Source: Chloroflexota bacterium (GTDB taxonomy: Bacteria; Chloroflexota; Limnocylindria; Limnocylindrales; CSP1-4). From it: a stretch of DNA of 33,178 nt. Positions 2,348 to 11,339 of this stretch are shown piece after piece. Both the position numbers and the translations under genes were made by a program. The first letter of the stretch is position 1. Each line of letters begins with the position of its first letter. The notes below the pieces were generated by a model. The model was not told where the DNA came from. It searched no databases and worked only from the letters and a program-made list of their open reading frames with translations. The DNA lies in contig PMIP01000098.1 in NCBI GenBank assembly GCA_003158295.1, forward strand, positions 1-33,178, read 5' to 3'.

Positions 2348-3853
2348 CTAGCTGATCGTCCGTAACCCCGGCCAGAGCGTAGTCCAGGGCGCTCGCAGGC
2401 CGGTACAGACGGTGACGGCCGTTCCCTGTTCTCCATTGGGGATGCCAAGCCCGTTGTCGATGTGGGCGACGTCATGGCAGCCGACGAAGAACTGGTTCGG
2501 GTCGGCGGGTCTCCAGTCGCCCACATGCACGACGACCGTCAGGTCGGGCGGCGGCGGTCCCCAGCTCCAGTACGAGTTGTGGCCAGAGTAGACCGGGGGC
2601 AACCCGGTCCCGAGCAAGATGAGCGGGCTCGCCTCGCTGTAGTCGTTGGTCAGGATCACGGCGTGGGCTCGCTCGTCGGCCGGTAGCGCCGCGACAACCC
2701 CCTCGACCGTGGCGACGTACTGCGGCCATCCGACCGTGTTCGCGACGTCGGGGACCGTCGCGGGCAACGTCGTCTTGGCATACGTCGCGAGCGGCAGGAT
2801 CGGCAGGGTCAGATACGCAATGAGAGCGCCTGAAAGCACCGCAGCCGTCGCGAACGTGACGCCTTTCACGCGCGTGTGGCCGCGGGCCAGCCAGCGGTCC
2901 AGGAGTATCGCCCCGGCCGCCATGAACATGGAGATGGTGCCGATCGCGTAGTAGGCCTTGCCGCCGCTGACAAGGACCAAGCCGAGTCCAACAAGAGCGG
3001 CGATCCCGATGGCCCGCCAGGGCGCCGCCGTCTTCGACCTCAGGACCCAGATCAGGCCCGCCGCGGTCACCGGGAAGAGGAAGGGGCCGCTGAACAACCA
3101 GAGCAGCGGCACGATCTGGCCACGATTGTCATCCGCGTATTGGGAGATCGCGTGCGCCATCGTGAGCTGCGGCCAGCCGTTCGCCGCCTGCCAGGCAAGG
3201 TTCGGCACCCACATCAGCAGCGCGATACCGATCGCCGCCCAGGCCCAGGGCGAGCGAACGACATCCCAGCGTCGAGTCAGGACGAGTCCGGCCGCCAACC
3301 CCGCGCCCAGGAACACGAGCGTGTCCTTGTTCTCCAGGCCGATCCCCGCCGTGACTCCGATTGCCAGCCAGAGGCGCCGATCGCCGCCCGCGAGCAGCTT
3401 CACCAGAAGCCACAGGATGATTGCCCAGGCGAGCAGGTCCGGCTCGGTCGTGGTGTCGAGATGCCCGGCTCCGAGATAGCCGGACAAGGCCGCCGTGATC
3501 GCCGCCAGGACCTGTGCCCGGCGCGATCCGCCCAGGTCGCCCGCGATCAGCGCGATGAGGACCACGATGAGCGACATCTCGAGCGCGGGCAGCAGCCGGA
3601 CGGCCGTGGGCGAGGTCCCAAACAAAGCCACCGAGGCGGCCGAGAGAAGTGGGGTCAGTGGCGGCTGGTCTACGTAGCCGAAAGCGGGATGCTGGCCCGC
3701 CACGACGAAGTACATCTCATCGCCGTGGAAGCCATATGCGCCCGCCACCGCCATCAGGCCAACGAACATCAGGCCCGCGATCAAGAGCCCGGGCCACGGA
3801 ACGGCCACCCAGGAGAAACGCTGTCTGACTGAGCCGGCGGTTGGGGCAGTCAT
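2348..3853 (-). CDS. GT39/ArnT-like membrane glycosyltransferase (PMT_2)
   Basis: This 501-residue integral membrane protein belongs to the GT-C superfamily of the dolichyl-phosphate-mannose mannosyltransferase/ArnT type. Such enzymes move a sugar from a polyprenyl-phosphate donor to lipid or protein on the outer face of the membrane. After the first membrane segment (about 20-40) comes the acidic loop HGDEMYF (43-49), then the typical YVDQPPLTP (60-68). About ten further hydrophobic segments run to about residue 365. A soluble C-terminal domain of roughly 130 residues follows. The gene overlaps the upstream TOPRIM gene by 4 bases (ATGA), so the two are probably translationally coupled. Acceptor and donor sugar cannot be predicted. 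Confidence 0.9.
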   Translation of the reverse strand: MTAPTAGSVRQRFSWVAVPWPGLLIAGLMFVGLMAVAGAYGFHGDEMYFVVAGQHPAFGYVDQPPLTPLLSAASVALFGTSPTAVRLLPALEMSLIVVLIALIAGDLGGSRRAQVLAAITAALSGYLGAGHLDTTTEPDLLAWAIILWLLVKLLAGGDRRLWLAIGVTAGIGLENKDTLVFLGAGLAAGLVLTRRWDVVRSPWAWAAIGIALLMWVPNLAWQAANGWPQLTMAHAISQYADDNRGQIVPLLWLFSGPFLFPVTAAGLIWVLRSKTAAPWRAIGIAALVGLGLVLVSGGKAYYAIGTISMFMAAGAILLDRWLARGHTRVKGVTFATAAVLSGALIAYLTLPILPLATYAKTTLPATVPDVANTVGWPQYVATVEGVVAALPADERAHAVILTNDYSEASPLILLGTGLPPVYSGHNSYWSWGPPPPDLTVVVHVGDWRPADPNQFFVGCHDVAHIDNGLGIPNGEQGTAVTVCTGLRAPWTTLWPGLRTIS

Positions 3854-4419
3854 GGTTCAGTTTCCATGCGGATGTATTCGAGCAGCAGGCGTAGAGGCCG
3901 CGGGAGCCTGGATGGATCGATCGTCTCGATGATCGCCCGAATGTATCGGCTGTTGCGGCCCGACTGGCTCCGGATGAAGCGGCGAAATTGATGCTCTACC
4001 GGGCGGCCCTGCCACGCGTGCTGCTTGCGGAACGTGTCCCACGGCTGGGCGTCGCCCTCCAGCTCGATCAGCCTTGAAACGACGGTCACCCCGGCGGCCC
4101 GAACCAGCTCGTCCTCCAGGTCGGCGCTGCAGGCAAAGAATCCCGCCCTTTCCAACCCGCTGTGATCAAGGCTTGGACCGTACCCAGCCCGCTCCAGCGC
4201 TGCTCGGATGACCTCCTCTTCGCCCACGTCATAGAGTCCGGCCAGATTCGCTAGCGGTTCCTCGGCGGCCAGCCGCAGCAAGAACCGGCTGATCGCGTGG
4301 ACGCCATTGAGCGGAACGACGGACACGCCTTCGGCCTCGAGATCGCGTCCCGATCGCCGGGCGGCCAGCGTCAGAGCGAGCTCGTCGGTCGCACCTTCAA
4401 CCAGGACGATCGTGCGCAC
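3850..4419 (-). CDS. Stand-alone TOPRIM nucleotidyl-transferase/hydrolase domain protein
   Basis: This 189-residue protein is nearly all one OLD-type TOPRIM domain. The N-terminus VRTIVLVEGATDELAL carries the TOPRIM glutamate (E8). LNGVHAISRF forms the next strand and loop. GLYDVGEEE (D64 onward) occupies the DxD position. The C-terminal half (ADLEDELVRA, then a basic SQSGRNSRYIRA segment) resembles small actinobacterial TOPRIM proteins that lack the OLD ATPase domain. Metal-dependent phosphoryl transfer on nucleic acid is expected but unproven. The track starts at TTG 4533. GTG 4419 is preferred because homologues, as I recall, begin at this strand, though its ribosome site (GAGGG at 12 nt) is weak. 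The gene is coupled to the downstream glycosyltransferase. Confidence 0.8.
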   Translation of the reverse strand: MRTIVLVEGATDELALTLAARRSGRDLEAEGVSVVPLNGVHAISRFLLRLAAEEPLANLAGLYDVGEEEVIRAALERAGYGPSLDHSGLERAGFFACSADLEDELVRAAGVTVVSRLIELEGDAQPWDTFRKQHAWQGRPVEHQFRRFIRSQSGRNSRYIRAIIETIDPSRLPRPLRLLLEYIRMETEP

Positions 4420-4564
4420 AGTGGAATACTGCCCTCGTCGATACGAACTCCACAACCCTGGTATCGGTGGTGTCGCCCGAGGCGGCCAGATCAACACTCC
4501 GGCTCGTGCCTCGCTAGTCGACATGGTCGCCAACTTCAGCTAGGGCGCCATCCGATTCGGCGGT

Positions 4565-4589
4565 GAACCCTTCTGTGCGGTCGCTCGTC
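4565..4589 (+). promoter_or_regulatory. Candidate ECF-sigma promoter before the sigma factor gene
   Basis: GAACC (4565-4569) and CGTC (4586-4589) are separated by 16 bases, the general -35/-10 arrangement of many ECF sigma promoters. Transcription would begin near 4596-4600. That would place ATG 4594 at or upstream of the transcript start and favour TTG 4615 or ATG 4645 as the real translation start. Self-activation of the following sigma gene is an inference. Confidence 0.5.
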
Positions 4590-4614
4590 TAGCATGGAGA
4601 GAGGGGTCCACGCT

Positions 4615-5178
4615 TTGGACAGCGAGCCTGCGGCGGAAGGGACGATGGAGATCGACGAACCCATCGAGCGGCTCGAGACCGAGCGCGACTCCTTCGACCG
4701 TCTGCTGAGGCCGGAGCTCGCAGGTGCCTACCGCCTGGCGGGTTACATGCTCTGCGATGCCAGCGCTGCCGAAGACGCGGCCCAGGAAGCGGTTCTGCGA
4801 GCCTGGCGGGCCTACCCGAGACTCCGGGACCACAGCCAGTTCGGGCCGTGGCTCCAGCGGATCGTGGCCAACGTCTGCCGCGACCAGCGGCGTCGCCGGC
4901 GCCTGGTCAGGTTCGTGCCACTCGACGGCGCAGCCGAGGAGCCCCAGCCTGGCGACCCGTTCCGCACTGCCCTGGATCGCGTGGCCATCGGTCGAGCCAT
5001 CGCCCAGCTCTCAGGCGAGCACCGCGAAGTCGTCGTCCTGCGCTACATGCTCGACCTCACCAACGAAGACATCGGCGAGCGGCTCGGAATCCCGGTCGGG
5101 ACGGTCAAGTCGCGCCTTCACTACGCCTTCACTGAGCTCAGGCGGGGCCTGGACCAAGACCCAGAGGTGGCTCGATGA
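4615..5178 (+). CDS. ECF-family RNA polymerase sigma factor
   Basis: This is an extracytoplasmic-function sigma-70 that directs RNA polymerase to a small regulon. In track numbering (start 4594), region 2 spans about residues 34-103 (AYRLAGYMLCDASAAEDAAQEAVLRAW, then WLQRIVANVCRDQRRRRR). Region 4 spans about 127-186, with the helix-turn-helix LTNEDIGERLGIPVGTVKSRL. It has the two-domain size typical of ECF factors. Start choice is open: ATG 4594 has no ribosome site and overlaps the predicted transcript start, TTG 4615 follows GAGAGAGGGG, and ATG 4645 follows GGAAGGGA. The stop overlaps the next gene's start in ATGA (5175-5178), so the following membrane protein is very likely its translationally coupled regulator. 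Confidence 0.93.
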   Translation: MDSEPAAEGTMEIDEPIERLETERDSFDRLLRPELAGAYRLAGYMLCDASAAEDAAQEAVLRAWRAYPRLRDHSQFGPWLQRIVANVCRDQRRRRRLVRFVPLDGAAEEPQPGDPFRTALDRVAIGRAIAQLSGEHREVVVLRYMLDLTNEDIGERLGIPVGTVKSRLHYAFTELRRGLDQDPEVAR

Positions 5179-6611
5179 GAAGCGACATGACTGGCTTCGA
5201 CCGCGACCTCGAGCCCGGGCTCGAACGGGACCTGGAGGCCCAGCTGCGGCTCTTCTTCCACCAGGCCGCTCGACCGGCCGTCCCTCCGGCTCTGGAGCTG
5301 GCGACCGAACGGCTGCCTGACCGCCTGTTCCGGGATCGGATCGGGCTTCCCGGAAGCCGGCTGTTTGTTCGACCCATGAAAGCTGCGCTCGTCGCCTTGT
5401 CCGTGGTCCTCGCGGTCGCGACCACCGTGGGCCTGCTGGAACTGCGGGGCGGACTGCAATCGGCGCCCGCGGGGCACGTGACACCGACGCGGATCCTCCT
5501 GGATCCCGTCTCGCGCAATCCGGCGATCGTGGCCATGGGTCGCTTCGACTCGAACACCGGCTGGGTGGAGATCAGCGCCCTGGACGCCGATGACACGGGC
5601 CACGCCTCTTCGTATCTGAGGTGGACGGAGGATGGCGGCAAGACCTGGTCGGAGCCGCGGCCGGTGCCGCTTCCGCTGACGGACATGGGAACGGGCAGGG
5701 TCCAGTTCGTCGACACGAGGCACGGCTGGACGACCACCTACGGGCCCCAAGGAAGTCCCACGCAGAGGGCCACCCTGTGGCGGACGTCCGATGGTGGCCT
5801 TACGTGGCAGACCTCGACCATCCCCTCTGACTCGGTGCCGAGTTCGGGCTTCTTCGGGGATACCGTCCAATTCCGAGACTCACTGAATGGCGAGGCGTTC
5901 GAGTTCCGCGCGGCCGGCTCCGGCTCGGACGCGGCAGCGGGCGCCACGTATTCAGATTGGGTCTGCAAGCAGTTCTCCACCTCAGACGGCGGCGTGACCT
6001 GGTCCGCGCCCAAGGCAATCCCCTGCATGAGCGGCGTCACGTTCGCGGACAACCTGCTCGGGTATTCCTACGACTCGCCTGGGCTGTACGTGACTCTGGA
6101 CGGAGGGCAGACCTGGACGGCCGGGACGCTGCCAGCCGAGGCCCAGGGGTCCAAATACCAGATCCCGATGCTGCTGGAGCGCCGTTCCGATGGAACCCTT
6201 CGCGCCTTCGTTTACTGGGTGAAGGACGACGGAACGAGCGTCAACGCGATCGTAGAAAGCAGAGACGCGGGCCAGACCTGGAGCGTCGCGGGGACGCCCT
6301 CCGCTGACGATACGACGACCAGGGATTACGGCCTGCCCTTCGGTATGCCGATGGCCGTCCGTGACGAAGACCACTGGCTGACCGCTCCCATCAAGCAAGG
6401 CAACAAGCCGGACCCGTGGTTCGGCACAAGCGATGGCGGCTTGACCTGGACGCAGGTCACCTACGCCGGCCTGACCGGCGACATCAAGGACTTCGACTTC
6501 CTGAGCGCGTCCGATGGCTGGGCAGCGACGGACACGTATGACACCGTCGCCGCCCTCTGGGCCACGACGGATGGCGGCGCTACCTGGACCCGCATCCTGT
6601 CGACGCCATAG
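5175..6611 (+). CDS. Membrane-anchored seven-Asp-box beta-propeller protein, putative anti-sigma factor/sensor
   Basis: This 478-residue protein has three parts. A roughly 65-residue charged N-terminal part lacks a signal peptide and is probably cytoplasmic. One membrane segment follows at about 68-92. The extracytoplasmic part of about 385 residues carries seven Asp-boxes of the form S/T-x-D-G-G-x-T-W, at about 151, 204, 269, 307, 362 (SRDAGQTW), 418 and 464. Seven such turns fit a seven-bladed propeller like Ycf48/HCF136 or sialidase-type BNR folds. The gene is coupled to the ECF sigma gene by a 4-base overlap. Position and topology suggest an anti-sigma factor that senses through the propeller. 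The N-terminus does not show an obvious zinc-binding anti-sigma motif, so the regulatory role is inferred from context. Confidence 0.8.
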   Translation: MRSDMTGFDRDLEPGLERDLEAQLRLFFHQAARPAVPPALELATERLPDRLFRDRIGLPGSRLFVRPMKAALVALSVVLAVATTVGLLELRGGLQSAPAGHVTPTRILLDPVSRNPAIVAMGRFDSNTGWVEISALDADDTGHASSYLRWTEDGGKTWSEPRPVPLPLTDMGTGRVQFVDTRHGWTTTYGPQGSPTQRATLWRTSDGGLTWQTSTIPSDSVPSSGFFGDTVQFRDSLNGEAFEFRAAGSGSDAAAGATYSDWVCKQFSTSDGGVTWSAPKAIPCMSGVTFADNLLGYSYDSPGLYVTLDGGQTWTAGTLPAEAQGSKYQIPMLLERRSDGTLRAFVYWVKDDGTSVNAIVESRDAGQTWSVAGTPSADDTTTRDYGLPFGMPMAVRDEDHWLTAPIKQGNKPDPWFGTSDGGLTWTQVTYAGLTGDIKDFDFLSASDGWAATDTYDTVAALWATTDGGATWTRILSTP

Positions 6612-6682
6612 CGGCAGCTGAGACCGGCGCCCTCAGGCCACGTCAAGCCGAGAGAGGTTGCCCGCATCCGGTCAACCCCGGA

Positions 6683-8184: not shown

Positions 8185-9702
8185 TTGATCCAGGTAACGG
8201 TGGCGGTCGATCGCGACCAGGCGATCGGTAGGATCGACCGGCGGCTTTTCGGCTCGTTCGTCGAGCATCTCGGCCGGTGCGTGTACGGAGGCATCTACGC
8301 GCCCGGTAGCCCGCTCTCGGACTCGAGCGGGTTCCGCGAGGACGTCGCGACGCTCATCCGCGATCTCGGCGTGACCACCGTCCGGTACCCGGGCGGCAAC
8401 TTCGTCTCCGGCTACCGCTGGGAAGACGGCGTGGGGCCACGAGAGGCCCGACCGAGCCGGCTCAACCTCGCCTGGCACCAGACCGACCCGAACAGCTTCG
8501 GCCTCCACGAGTTCGTCGACTGGAGCCGGAAGCTGGGCGTCGAGCCCATGCTGGCGGTCAACCTGGGCACGCGCGGCATCGCGGAGGCGCTCGACCTGCT
8601 CGAGTACTCGAACCATCCCGGCGGTACGACGCTTTCGGACCAGCGGATCGCGCACGGCGCCGCGAGCCCGTTCGGCGTGCGGATGTGGTGCCTGGGGAAT
8701 GAGCCCGACGGCCCCTGGCAGCTCGGCCACAAGACCGCGCTCGAGTATGGCCGGCTCGCGGCCGAAACGGCCCGCGGGTTCCGCCAGTTCGACCCGAAGC
8801 TGGAGCTGGTCGTCGCTGGTCAGACGGCGCCGTGGCTCCCGAGCTCGGTCGACTGGGACCGGATCGTGCTCGAGGAGACCGCCGAGTTCGCCGACTACGT
8901 CGCGGTCCACATCTACGTCGAGGAGCTCGAGCGCGACATCCAGACGTTCCTCGCCTCCGGTGTAGACCTCGACGGGGAGATCGAGCGGGCGATCGCGGCC
9001 GCGGACGCGGCGGCGGAGAAGCGTGGCGTAGGCCGCAAACTCGCGGTATCGGTCGACGAATGGGGCATCTGGCGCGGCCGCGACCCGAACCCATCCACTC
9101 CCGAGGATTGGCCGGTCGAGAGGCGGATCGGCGAGTCCGTCTACACGGCCGGCGACGCCGTCGTGACGGGAGCCCTCATCGTCTCGTTGCTCAACCACGC
9201 CGACCGAGTCACATGCGCCTGCCAGTCGCTGCTCGTCAACGCCGGTGCTCCGATCCGCGCGGAGGCGGACGGGGTGTGGCGCCAGTCGACCTACCACCCG
9301 TTCCAGCTGGCCGCGCGCCATGCCCGGGGAACGGCCCTCCGAGCGACCATCGAGGCGCCGGAGATGGATACCGGGAAGTACGGCCGCGTCTCCGCGATCG
9401 ACGTGGCCGCAACCCTCGACGAGGAAGGCGGCCAGCTCGTGCTGTTCCTGGTCAACCGCAGTGCCTCGGAGGTGGCGCGGACGAGCGTCCGCCTGGGATC
9501 CTGGCCGGACGCGCGGGTCGCGGAGGCGCTCGTCATCGGTGGGGGTGACCCGTGGGAGACGAACACGCGCGAGCACCCCGATCGCGTAATCCCACGAACG
9601 CTCTCCGAGGTTGCGCTCGAAGGCGACTCGCTGGAGGCGATCCTGCCCGCGGCCTCGTGGAGCGTCGTTCGGTTGGCCACCCCCTCGAGGCGACAGCCAT
9701 AG
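8185..9702 (+). CDS. Alpha-L-arabinofuranosidase, GH51
   Basis: This retaining glycosidase releases terminal L-arabinofuranose from arabino-oligosaccharides, and is probably cytoplasmic because no signal peptide is present. The 505-residue length fits GH51. The (beta/alpha)8 barrel carries the acid/base glutamate in CLGNEPDGPW (E173) and the nucleophile in SVDEWGIW (E292), almost the same positions as characterised Geobacillus enzymes. Other family signatures include RRLFGSFVEHLGRCVYGGIY near the N-terminus and VRYPGGNFVSGYRWEDGVGP (about 66-85). The C-terminal 120 residues form the usual beta-sandwich. The start is TTG 8185 with AAGGTG upstream. A sugar-binding lipoprotein gene follows at 9897, suggesting import and cleavage of arabinose-containing sugars. 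Confidence 0.95.
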   Translation: MIQVTVAVDRDQAIGRIDRRLFGSFVEHLGRCVYGGIYAPGSPLSDSSGFREDVATLIRDLGVTTVRYPGGNFVSGYRWEDGVGPREARPSRLNLAWHQTDPNSFGLHEFVDWSRKLGVEPMLAVNLGTRGIAEALDLLEYSNHPGGTTLSDQRIAHGAASPFGVRMWCLGNEPDGPWQLGHKTALEYGRLAAETARGFRQFDPKLELVVAGQTAPWLPSSVDWDRIVLEETAEFADYVAVHIYVEELERDIQTFLASGVDLDGEIERAIAAADAAAEKRGVGRKLAVSVDEWGIWRGRDPNPSTPEDWPVERRIGESVYTAGDAVVTGALIVSLLNHADRVTCACQSLLVNAGAPIRAEADGVWRQSTYHPFQLAARHARGTALRATIEAPEMDTGKYGRVSAIDVAATLDEEGGQLVLFLVNRSASEVARTSVRLGSWPDARVAEALVIGGGDPWETNTREHPDRVIPRTLSEVALEGDSLEAILPAASWSVVRLATPSRRQP

Positions 9703-9705
9703 CGG

Positions 9706-9727
9706 TCGAGGCTTTGCCGGGCCTCGA
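9706..9727 (+). terminator. Hairpin just after the GH51 stop codon
   Basis: TCGAGGC (9706-9712) pairs perfectly with GCCTCGA (9721-9727) across an 8-base loop, four bases after the GH51 stop. No T-run follows, so intrinsic termination is uncertain. It may only stabilise the transcript end. It would separate the enzyme gene from the solute-binding gene. Confidence 0.35.
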
Positions 9728-9896
9728 ACGGTCGCGTCCGTCACTGGCTCGTTGGCCCCAGAGGTTCCGGTCCTCGCCCCGGCCAACCCTCGGAGGGATC
9801 GCGGTTGATCTCGACGTGTTCGCCGGACGCACCGAGGTCTTCCTGGCTACGATGCACTCCTGGCAGGTCCAGGGATAGTTGCGAAGGGGGTTAGGA

Positions 9897-11339
9897 GTGG
9901 CTCAGCCGGATCAAGCGCCGGGCTCTGCCTGTGGTCTGCTCTCGAGGCGCGAGATCCTGAGACGGGGCGTGCTGGGCGCCGCCGGGTTGGCCGTTGGTCC
10001 GGCAGCGCTGGCCGCGCTGCCGGCGGTTCTCGCGGCCTGCGGTGAGAACACATCGACGCTCACCCCTCCGCCACTCGTGATCCCGAGTCTCGTCCCTGGT
10101 CTCACCGGTCAGCTGCGCGTCGGCGATCAGATCGACGTCCTCGGCACTCACTCGCTGGACATCGCGGCCGGCCTGCATGACGTAGATACTGCCTTCGCCG
10201 CCAAGACGGGGCTGGCTGTCACCGCGAACGACAAACCCGCGTACGACCCCCGGCAGTACCTGTCTTCCGAGCCGGACGACGTCAGCACGTCCACCTACTT
10301 CCACGGCTACCGGCTGAGGCTCTATGGCCCAGCGGGATTGCTCGCCCCGCTCGACGACGTCTGGGAAGGAGTGAAGGACAACTTCAGCGCGTGCGTGGCG
10401 GAGGCGGTCACCGGCCCCGACGGCCACGTCTACGGCATCCCGTTCGACTCCTCTCCGTGGGTCTTCTTCTATCGAAAGAGCCTCTGGGCATCGAAGGGCT
10501 ACGAGGTGCCGACCACCTGGACCGAGCTGCTCGCCCTGTGCGGACGGATGCAATCCGACAACGACATTCTGTCGACACCGATCGCCATGGGCGCCCGGGA
10601 CGGCTGGCCGCCCATGGGCACCTTCGACATGTTGAACCTGCGACTGAATGGCTACGACTTTCACATCGGCCTGCTGACCGGCAAGGAGAAGTGGACCGAC
10701 CAGCGGGTGATCGCCGTCTTCGAGGCCTGGCGCAAGCTGATCCCGTACTACAACCAACGCGGCGCTATTGGCGCGATACCCAACCAGACCTGGCTGGACG
10801 CCGCCGGCACCATGGAAGGTGGCACGGCCGGCATGTTCTACTCCAGCCTCTCTTTGACCGGGGAATTCGGCGGCCTCGACACGGCCATCGTCGACGACAT
10901 CGACTTCTTCGAGTTCCCCTACTTCGGCAACCAGTGGGACGCGGAGAGGGTGGTTGAAGCTCCCATCGACCTCTGGGTCATGCCCTCGAAGTCGCCGACT
11001 CTGCAGGCGAACCGAGCCAATGCGAAGGCCTATCTGGACTTCTGGGCGAGGGGCTCGACCCAGCTCCTCATGCACGGGCAGAGGCCGGGCTTCATCCCGA
11101 CGGCTCGCGACATCGACACCGCCCAACTGGATCGGCTGAGCAAGAAGGCCCTGGAGCTGGTGGGTGGTGCCCACCACCTCACCCAGGCATTCGATGGCGA
11201 CACACGGCCCGACTTCCCCGGCGCCGGCGGCATGCAGGGGTTCCTGCAGACCTTCCTCCACGACCCGACACGGGACCTGGCCGCCTTCACGCAACAAGTC
11301 CAGGACTTCTGGGATGCGTTGCCGCCCTTCGATGGTTGA
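9897..11339 (+). CDS. Tat-type lipoprotein, extracellular sugar-binding protein (SBP family 1)
   Basis: This is the ligand-binding component of a carbohydrate ABC importer, lipid-anchored outside the membrane. The N-terminus has a twin-arginine motif (SRREIL, Arg17-Arg18), a long hydrophobic stretch and lipobox LAAC (Cys48). The mature part shows family 1 features: VYGIPFDSSPWVFFYRKSLW, then PTTWTELLALCGRM, and a C-terminal region typical of sugar-binding proteins. The length of about 480 residues is normal. GTG 9897 is chosen over TTG 9879 because AGGGGG lies six bases before it. No permease or ATPase gene follows, so its membrane partners must be elsewhere. The GH51 gene upstream suggests an arabinoside ligand, which is only an inference. 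Confidence 0.9.
   Translation: MAQPDQAPGSACGLLSRREILRRGVLGAAGLAVGPAALAALPAVLAACGENTSTLTPPPLVIPSLVPGLTGQLRVGDQIDVLGTHSLDIAAGLHDVDTAFAAKTGLAVTANDKPAYDPRQYLSSEPDDVSTSTYFHGYRLRLYGPAGLLAPLDDVWEGVKDNFSACVAEAVTGPDGHVYGIPFDSSPWVFFYRKSLWASKGYEVPTTWTELLALCGRMQSDNDILSTPIAMGARDGWPPMGTFDMLNLRLNGYDFHIGLLTGKEKWTDQRVIAVFEAWRKLIPYYNQRGAIGAIPNQTWLDAAGTMEGGTAGMFYSSLSLTGEFGGLDTAIVDDIDFFEFPYFGNQWDAERVVEAPIDLWVMPSKSPTLQANRANAKAYLDFWARGSTQLLMHGQRPGFIPTARDIDTAQLDRLSKKALELVGGAHHLTQAFDGDTRPDFPGAGGMQGFLQTFLHDPTRDLAAFTQQVQDFWDALPPFDG

Follow-up and report, generated by a model that had tools for sequence, protein, structure and literature searches.

The gene downstream of the ECF sigma factor gene in the window (the whole 33,178-nucleotide stretch of DNA analyzed here) probably encodes a single-pass transmembrane anti-sigma receptor. 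The two genes would form an autoregulated cassette that is one of a large family. Transmembrane anti-sigma receptors with outer sensors are already known, as in RsgI (PMC6056542) and RsiV (PMC4183432, PMC5014341). What is apparently undescribed is a large family of interchangeable surface sensors that join the same tail to varied outer domains. We found no paper on separate ECF partners with propeller ectodomains or on this tail family; the ECF reclassification lay outside the search. The preliminary description had called a propeller sensor an unusual design, but within this lineage it is common and not an isolated case.

The sigma ORF (4594-5178, forward strand) encodes 194 amino acids and matches the Pfam domains Sigma70_r2 (8e-15, 54.8 bits) and Sigma70_r4 (2e-14, 53.2 bits). 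Both scores exceed the Pfam cut-off, giving sigma2 plus sigma4 and no further sigma domain. The product also scores above the cut-off of the NCBIfam superfamily TIGR02937, and it reaches 117.4 bits against the SigE family TIGR02983, below the curated cut-off of 141.6. Because an ECF-type promoter occupies positions 4565-4589, the more likely start of the sigma factor, judging by the sequence, is the ATG at 4645, preceded by GGAAGGGA, rather than 4594. Position 4565, where the preliminary description begins, is not a start codon; it is the first base of this promoter, GAACCC-N15-CGTC, which is of the AAC/CGTC type typical of ECF factors. The sigma ORF and the partner ORF (5175-6611, 478 amino acids) overlap by ATGA, as originally noticed. 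The layout first described for the partner, a short cytoplasmic part, one membrane helix, and seven Asp-boxes, also held, with a charged N terminus, a tail of about 67 residues, and boxes from residue 153 to 466. The helix (about residues 70-88) is the single strong hydrophobic one in the protein, with four K/R residues before it and one after. Coordinates are collected in Table 1.

Table 1. Positions of the cassette and its parts in the window.
Feature	Position	Strand	Details and basis
Whole conserved cassette	4549..6629	+	84% DNA identity with same-genus relative G012
ECF-type promoter of the operon, GAACCC-N15-CGTC	4565..4589	+	Motif, enriched upstream of coupled ECF genes
ECF sigma gene (regions 2 and 4)	4594..5178	+	Start 4594 or ATG 4645; Pfam, TIGR02937, start-site sequence
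Shine-Dalgarno-like GAGGTGG of second gene, within sigma gene	5164..5170	+	Sequence; 4 bases before second start
ATGA stop/start overlap (probable translational coupling)	5175..5178	+	Sequence; same -3 offset in 114/129 ECF/partner pairs
Transmembrane anti-sigma-like receptor, Asp-box propeller ectodomain, 478 aa	5175..6611	+	Sequence, Pfam, AlphaFold2
Cytoplasmic N-terminal domain, residues 1-67, proposed anti-sigma domain	5175..5375	+	Family profile, predicted helices 14-31 and 38-44
Membrane helix (residues 70-88), N terminus inside by charge	5382..5438	+	Hydrophobicity; AlphaFold2 helix 65-91
Extracytoplasmic Asp-box (BNR) beta-propeller, residues 111-478	5505..6608	+	Pfam BNR_2, AlphaFold2, Foldseek
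Asp-box 1, DGGKTW	5631..5648	+	Motif
Asp-box 2, DGGLTW	5790..5807	+	Motif
Asp-box 3, DGGVTW	5985..6002	+	Motif
Asp-box 4, DGGQTW	6099..6116	+	Motif
Asp-box 5, DAGQTW	6264..6281	+	Motif
Asp-box 6, DGGLTW	6432..6449	+	Motif
Asp-box 7, DGGATW	6570..6587	+	Motif

The ectodomain carries seven D-x-G-x-[TSA]-W boxes, at residues 153, 206, 271, 309, 364, 420, and 466, compared with a mean of 0.06 and a maximum of 3 in 20,000 shuffles of the window ectodomain. Pfam recognized BNR_2 (49.4 bits, cut-off 31.4) and BNR (38.1 bits, cut-off 27). From 27 distant alignment rows, AlphaFold2 gave no more than a fair model of the full-length partner (pTM 0.67, with Foldseek TM reaching 0.46 at most), so the propeller was modeled alone, with a pLDDT of 77 and a pTM of 0.77. 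Foldseek matched this model to sortilin Vps10, GH74, Ycf48, PL25 lyase, and sialidases, and sequence profiles agreed. Among single small propellers, the best whole-fold agreement was with Ycf48 (TM 0.5-0.6; 0.61 by target length for 5ojp), and TM was lower for most others. Structure prediction of the partner alone, which had been proposed as a check, returned a propeller-like fold. The seven boxes, originally read as the number for a complete seven-bladed propeller, stand; that they close into a seven-bladed ring is no more than likely at this pTM and this agreement with Ycf48. The FRIP-like catalytic motif of sialidases, [FYW]R[ILV]P, is absent from the window protein.

We collected Asp-box proteins across the class by a profile search with the window protein and then inspected the upstream DNA. 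An ECF gene lies directly upstream of 49 of the 64 Asp-box ORFs in this set, at the -3 (ATGA) offset in 46. The remaining 15 include five that are cut by a contig end and one (L243) that is overlapped by an ECF gene. Most other uncoupled ORFs open with a secretion signal, either a signal peptide or one of lipoprotein type, and hence have no inner tail. In L240, also uncoupled, no membrane helix stands out clearly, and L239 reads as a lipoprotein when the internal Met is taken as its start. Tailed forms were coupled in 49 cases and uncoupled in none, compared with none and eight for secreted forms (Fisher 6e-10), with the classes assigned from helix position in a sample that leans toward tailed forms, as the query profile included the tail. 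The pair is therefore conserved, the outcome for which the preliminary description had proposed a neighborhood search. It had also named homologs never found beside an ECF gene as evidence to the contrary, and the opposite was found: tailed homologs with upstream DNA present are coupled to an ECF gene almost without exception.

Outside the class, other members of the phylum follow the same division: L421, L439, L441, and L444 are tailed and coupled, and secreted ones lack an ECF gene. A scan of named genomes gave 80 Asp-box loci in many phyla, only three of them with a nearby gene of this ECF type. A tailed Asp-box protein stands beside an ECF gene in an actinobacterial MAG (L099) and in an acidobacterial MAG (L133); at L100 the ECF gene is paired with a different partner. 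No coupled relative was found in the plasmid records searched.

From the side of the sigma factor, the arrangement is broader than the propellers. A search with the window sigma factor gave 29 matches in its own genome, of which 14 were strong; across the 21 genomes searched in the genus, strong matches number 3 to 22 per genome. A coupled one-span partner lies downstream of 129 of 134 distinct ECF genes, which were chosen by similarity to the window sigma factor or as Asp-box neighbors and are not a random ECF sample; 114 pairs have the ATGA offset. The membrane helix of the 129 partners begins after 33 to 109 residues (median 62). Natural fusions of sigma factor and tail were found in none of 135 sigma ORFs. 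Partner ectodomains fall into 28 clusters, in which Pfam recognized Asp-box propellers (BNR), kelch propellers, NfeD, PepSY, and the SecDF P1 head; zf-HC2 matched weakly in one partner. Asp-box counts are either 5 to 7 or 11 to 14, which suggests from the repeat number that these partners carry one or two propellers. The window sigma factor is 67% identical to that of L061, whose partner has a related tail and a PepSY ectodomain. As judged by sequence comparison, a sigma-plus-tail unit is shown to carry exchanged ectodomains in a large family.

Several of these partners deserve separate mention. L080, L082, L084, and L085 encode partners with 14 Asp-boxes, probably a tandem pair of propellers. 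At L066, L311, L327, and 17 more loci, all in one ectodomain cluster, an NfeD protein follows the same anti-sigma-like tail, with an NfeD1b N-terminal domain, a membrane domain, and a C-terminal domain by Pfam, in a conserved neighborhood. For the partner at L074:987-2189, Pfam assigns the ectodomain to the SecDF P1 head subdomain (2e-16), an unexpected sensor module. Coupled partners at L302, L324, L352, L300, L072, L073, and other loci have ectodomains without any Pfam match, a pool of surface domains outside Pfam.

The tails themselves align around D-x-[ED]-L-E-x-R-L-R, followed by P-x-x-P-x-x-L and then an Arg-rich stretch before the membrane. A tail profile trained on non-propeller partners only, with the membrane helix excluded, recognized the tails of 19 of 51 propeller partners at E<1e-3 but no reversed tail and not one of 3589 background ORFs. 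The same profile found the window tail at E=2e-4, or at 5e-5 after removal of the nearest paralogs, L061 and L294 (3600 sequences), and scored the reversed window tail at E=18 or more. On this profile evidence, the partner tails are one family. Over 5596 pairs without ectodomain similarity, sigma similarity tracks tail similarity (rho 0.244; permutations gave a mean of 0, a standard deviation of 0.044, and a maximum of 0.139). This covariation of sequences shows sigma factor and tail traveling as a unit, which fits binding and is also expected from common descent of the operon. Positive charge is greater before than after the membrane helix in 123 of 129 partners, and the tail is therefore placed inside.

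We compared the tail with known anti-sigma domains. A zinc anti-sigma domain was ruled out by the absence of its motif, with Hx3Cx2C occurring in only 1 of 129 partner tails. The preliminary description had taken ECF partners to be normally short zinc-binding or similar proteins, but zinc binding is less uniform among them: the motif is missing from about 44% of class I domains (PMC7406223). Nothing in Pfam, NCBIfam, or PDB matches the window tail significantly. Class I anti-sigma profiles of Pfam and NCBIfam did not match the tails, with RsrA at no better than E=0.036 in 2 of 35. The window tail had no Pfam match at E<=1, and thus none to the RsgI N-terminal domain, and a PDB search with the tail profile did not return CnrY at E<=10. 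The best score against the CU044_5270 family (NF038083) in 31 genomes was 29.6 bits, compared with a cut-off of 100. AlphaFold2 predicted helices at residues 14-31, 38-44, and 65-91 of the window partner, with tail pLDDT mostly below 70; the low-confidence tail model consists of one long and one short helix only. Because CnrY is built in this way, with a pair of helices ahead of a single membrane helix, we infer by analogy with this predicted structure that the tail may work like a class II (CnrY-type) domain, although we do not assign it to class II.

The promoter points to autoregulation. The motif GAAC-N15..18-CGTC precedes 19 of the 38 coupled ECF genes examined, compared with 74 of 1520 random 300-bp stretches (4.9%). 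In its strict form, the window promoter has seven sites in the genome (control, 0), five of them before ECF genes and two inside predicted ORFs with no ECF gene behind. A second form, GAACGAAAC-N12..13-CGTC, has 16 sites in 21 genomes (control, 1), 10 of them before ECF genes. Because both forms mostly precede ECF genes, autoregulation of the sigma operon is, as a reading of motif positions, well supported. Searching the whole genus for a variant of the window promoter gave a mixed result (11 of 30 loci before ECF genes, own-genome sites included), and a looser regulon search returned mainly background (107 places, compared with 30 in the reversed control). The promoter searches found no target beyond the cassette's own operon, with looser sites drowning in background.

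The cassette is also bounded as a unit. Similarity to its nearest relative, in G012, runs from 16 bp ahead of the promoter to 18 bp past the stop codon of the second gene, with nothing similar in the flanks. Some further pairs end equally sharply at the partner stop, and NfeD-type pairs lie in longer conserved stretches. At L382, L384, L388, L392, and L393, the CGTC box always ends 9 bases upstream of the earliest possible sigma start codon, a spacing that suggests leaderless or nearly leaderless transcripts. Elsewhere in the window, the ORF at 3850-4533 (reverse strand, 227 amino acids) is divergent from the sigma gene and has an OLD-like TOPRIM domain as its sole match (Pfam 4e-9). At 8185-11339 (forward strand), an alpha-L-arabinofuranosidase gene adjoins that of an ABC solute-binding protein, probably a locus for arabinoside uptake, where the strict ECF promoter does not occur.

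In the mechanism that we favor, the two-helix cytoplasmic tail would bind and hold the ECF sigma factor translated from their shared mRNA, and the observed ATGA overlap may keep sigma factor and receptor in step. The outer propeller would sense a ligand by binding it, probably a peptide, a protein, or a glycan, since the proteins matched by fold bind such ligands. Once the ligand is bound, the tail would be lost; the most likely route is regulated intramembrane proteolysis and then cytoplasmic degradation, as for RsgI, RsiV, and RseA. The freed sigma factor would then transcribe from GAACC-type promoters, identified by conservation, its own first. Of the 129 membrane segments, 59 contain the tripeptide LAA, compared with 31 +/- 4.6 in shuffles. 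In the RsgI membrane helix, XAA sites are recognized by ClpXP after RseP cleavage (PMC12203970); by analogy, the LAA excess may be a hint of release by regulated intramembrane proteolysis. The idea of an ECF partner that senses the outside through a propeller is thus supported by the coupling of tailed homologs to ECF genes and by a tail common to unrelated ectodomains.

Other readings of the same evidence differ in how well they survive. One goes further than the receptor itself: the cassettes may be portable, combinatorial receptors, in which promoter, sigma factor, and tail are constant, ectodomains are swapped, the two-gene blocks are mobile, and the output of the sigma factor is chiefly its own receptor. 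We regard this as tentative and on balance doubtful. If it is true, it would give self-amplifying, possibly bistable display of one propeller among a dozen or more per genome. Less probable still is that the propeller is an effector rather than a regulator, a surface protein (an adhesin, or an assembly or binding factor like Ycf48) under its own sigma factor with the tail as a mere anchor. The strict promoter stands chiefly before ECF operons, so that the main output of the sigma factor may indeed be the surface protein, and the window cassette and its close relative G012 have only the promoter and the two genes in common. A mere anchor, however, would not form a conserved family across unrelated ectodomains or track the sigma factor, and secreted homologs with an ordinary signal peptide lack an ECF gene.

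We consider it improbable that the tail is instead a co-activator that activates the sigma factor or recruits it to membrane and polymerase. Conservation and covariation are equally expected of such a positive partner, but we know of no example of an activating rather than inhibiting partner in this layout. Inhibition is by far the commonest role of a membrane-bound, ECF-adjacent partner (PMC8999054, PMC7406223). Adjacency by chance or operon packing is most improbable of all: Asp-box genes are common and only 3 of 80 loci in named genomes have a nearby ECF gene, one of these with another partner, but those 80 are mostly secreted forms, whereas tailed forms are nearly always coupled at a fixed -3 offset.

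The anti-sigma receptor family would bear on ECF regulation more widely. The most extensive published count places a recognized class I anti-sigma domain next to only about one in three ECF sigma factors (PMC7406223). The tail family described here is short and zinc-free, has no match in Pfam or NCBIfam, and accounts for nearly all ECF genes examined in the lineage. It suggests a search rule for ECF receptors, namely, a tail of 45 to 80 amino acids, one membrane helix, and an ATGA overlap. A set of surface propellers, many of which bear no label beyond BNR, kelch, or unknown, would then be likely sensors. That one sigma-binding tail may serve many unrelated sensor folds is made testable, and such units are candidate orthogonal switches.

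Among known systems, the partner resembles CnrY in layout: a very short cytoplasmic domain, two helices (predicted with low confidence in the partner), one membrane helix, and no zinc motif, although profile searches detect no sequence relation. CnrY is not known to carry a propeller, and its sensor is a separate protein. In CnrY, a class II anti-sigma factor, helix 1 lies on sigma4 and helix 2 on sigma2 (PMC7406223). As in class I systems (RseA, RskA, RsiW, ChrR, and RsrA), a membrane-bound ECF partner is encoded beside the sigma gene. Class I domains, however, average about 101 amino acids, with three helices plus a fourth (PMC7406223), whereas the tails described here have a median of 62 residues before the membrane, almost never carry Hx3Cx2C, and match no class I profile. 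CU044_5270 is weakly similar to the N-terminal part of several partners, always below cut-off.

SigI/RsgI of Clostridium thermocellum shares paralogous autoregulated operons, one membrane helix, and exchanged outer sensors (PMC6056542, PMC12203970). Of the sigma70 domains, however, SigI carries sigma2 alone, and it does not belong to the ECF factors; RsgI sensors are carbohydrate-binding modules and the like, on an N-terminal domain that the tail described here does not match. SigV/RsiV of Bacillus subtilis likewise has a transmembrane anti-sigma receptor with an outer sensor domain; the RsiV ectodomain binds a protein ligand directly, and regulated intramembrane proteolysis then cuts RsiV (PMC4183432, PMC5014341). 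It differs in ectodomain fold and ligand, and RsiV is not a multimember family with swapped ectodomains. ECF57, with WD40-like repeats, and ECF52, with a carbohydrate-binding outer domain, have these domains fused to the sigma factor itself (PMC8999054), whereas the outer domains here are on a separate partner. Ycf48, sortilin Vps10, GH74 xyloglucanase, and sialidases share the Asp-box propeller fold but are not ECF partners.
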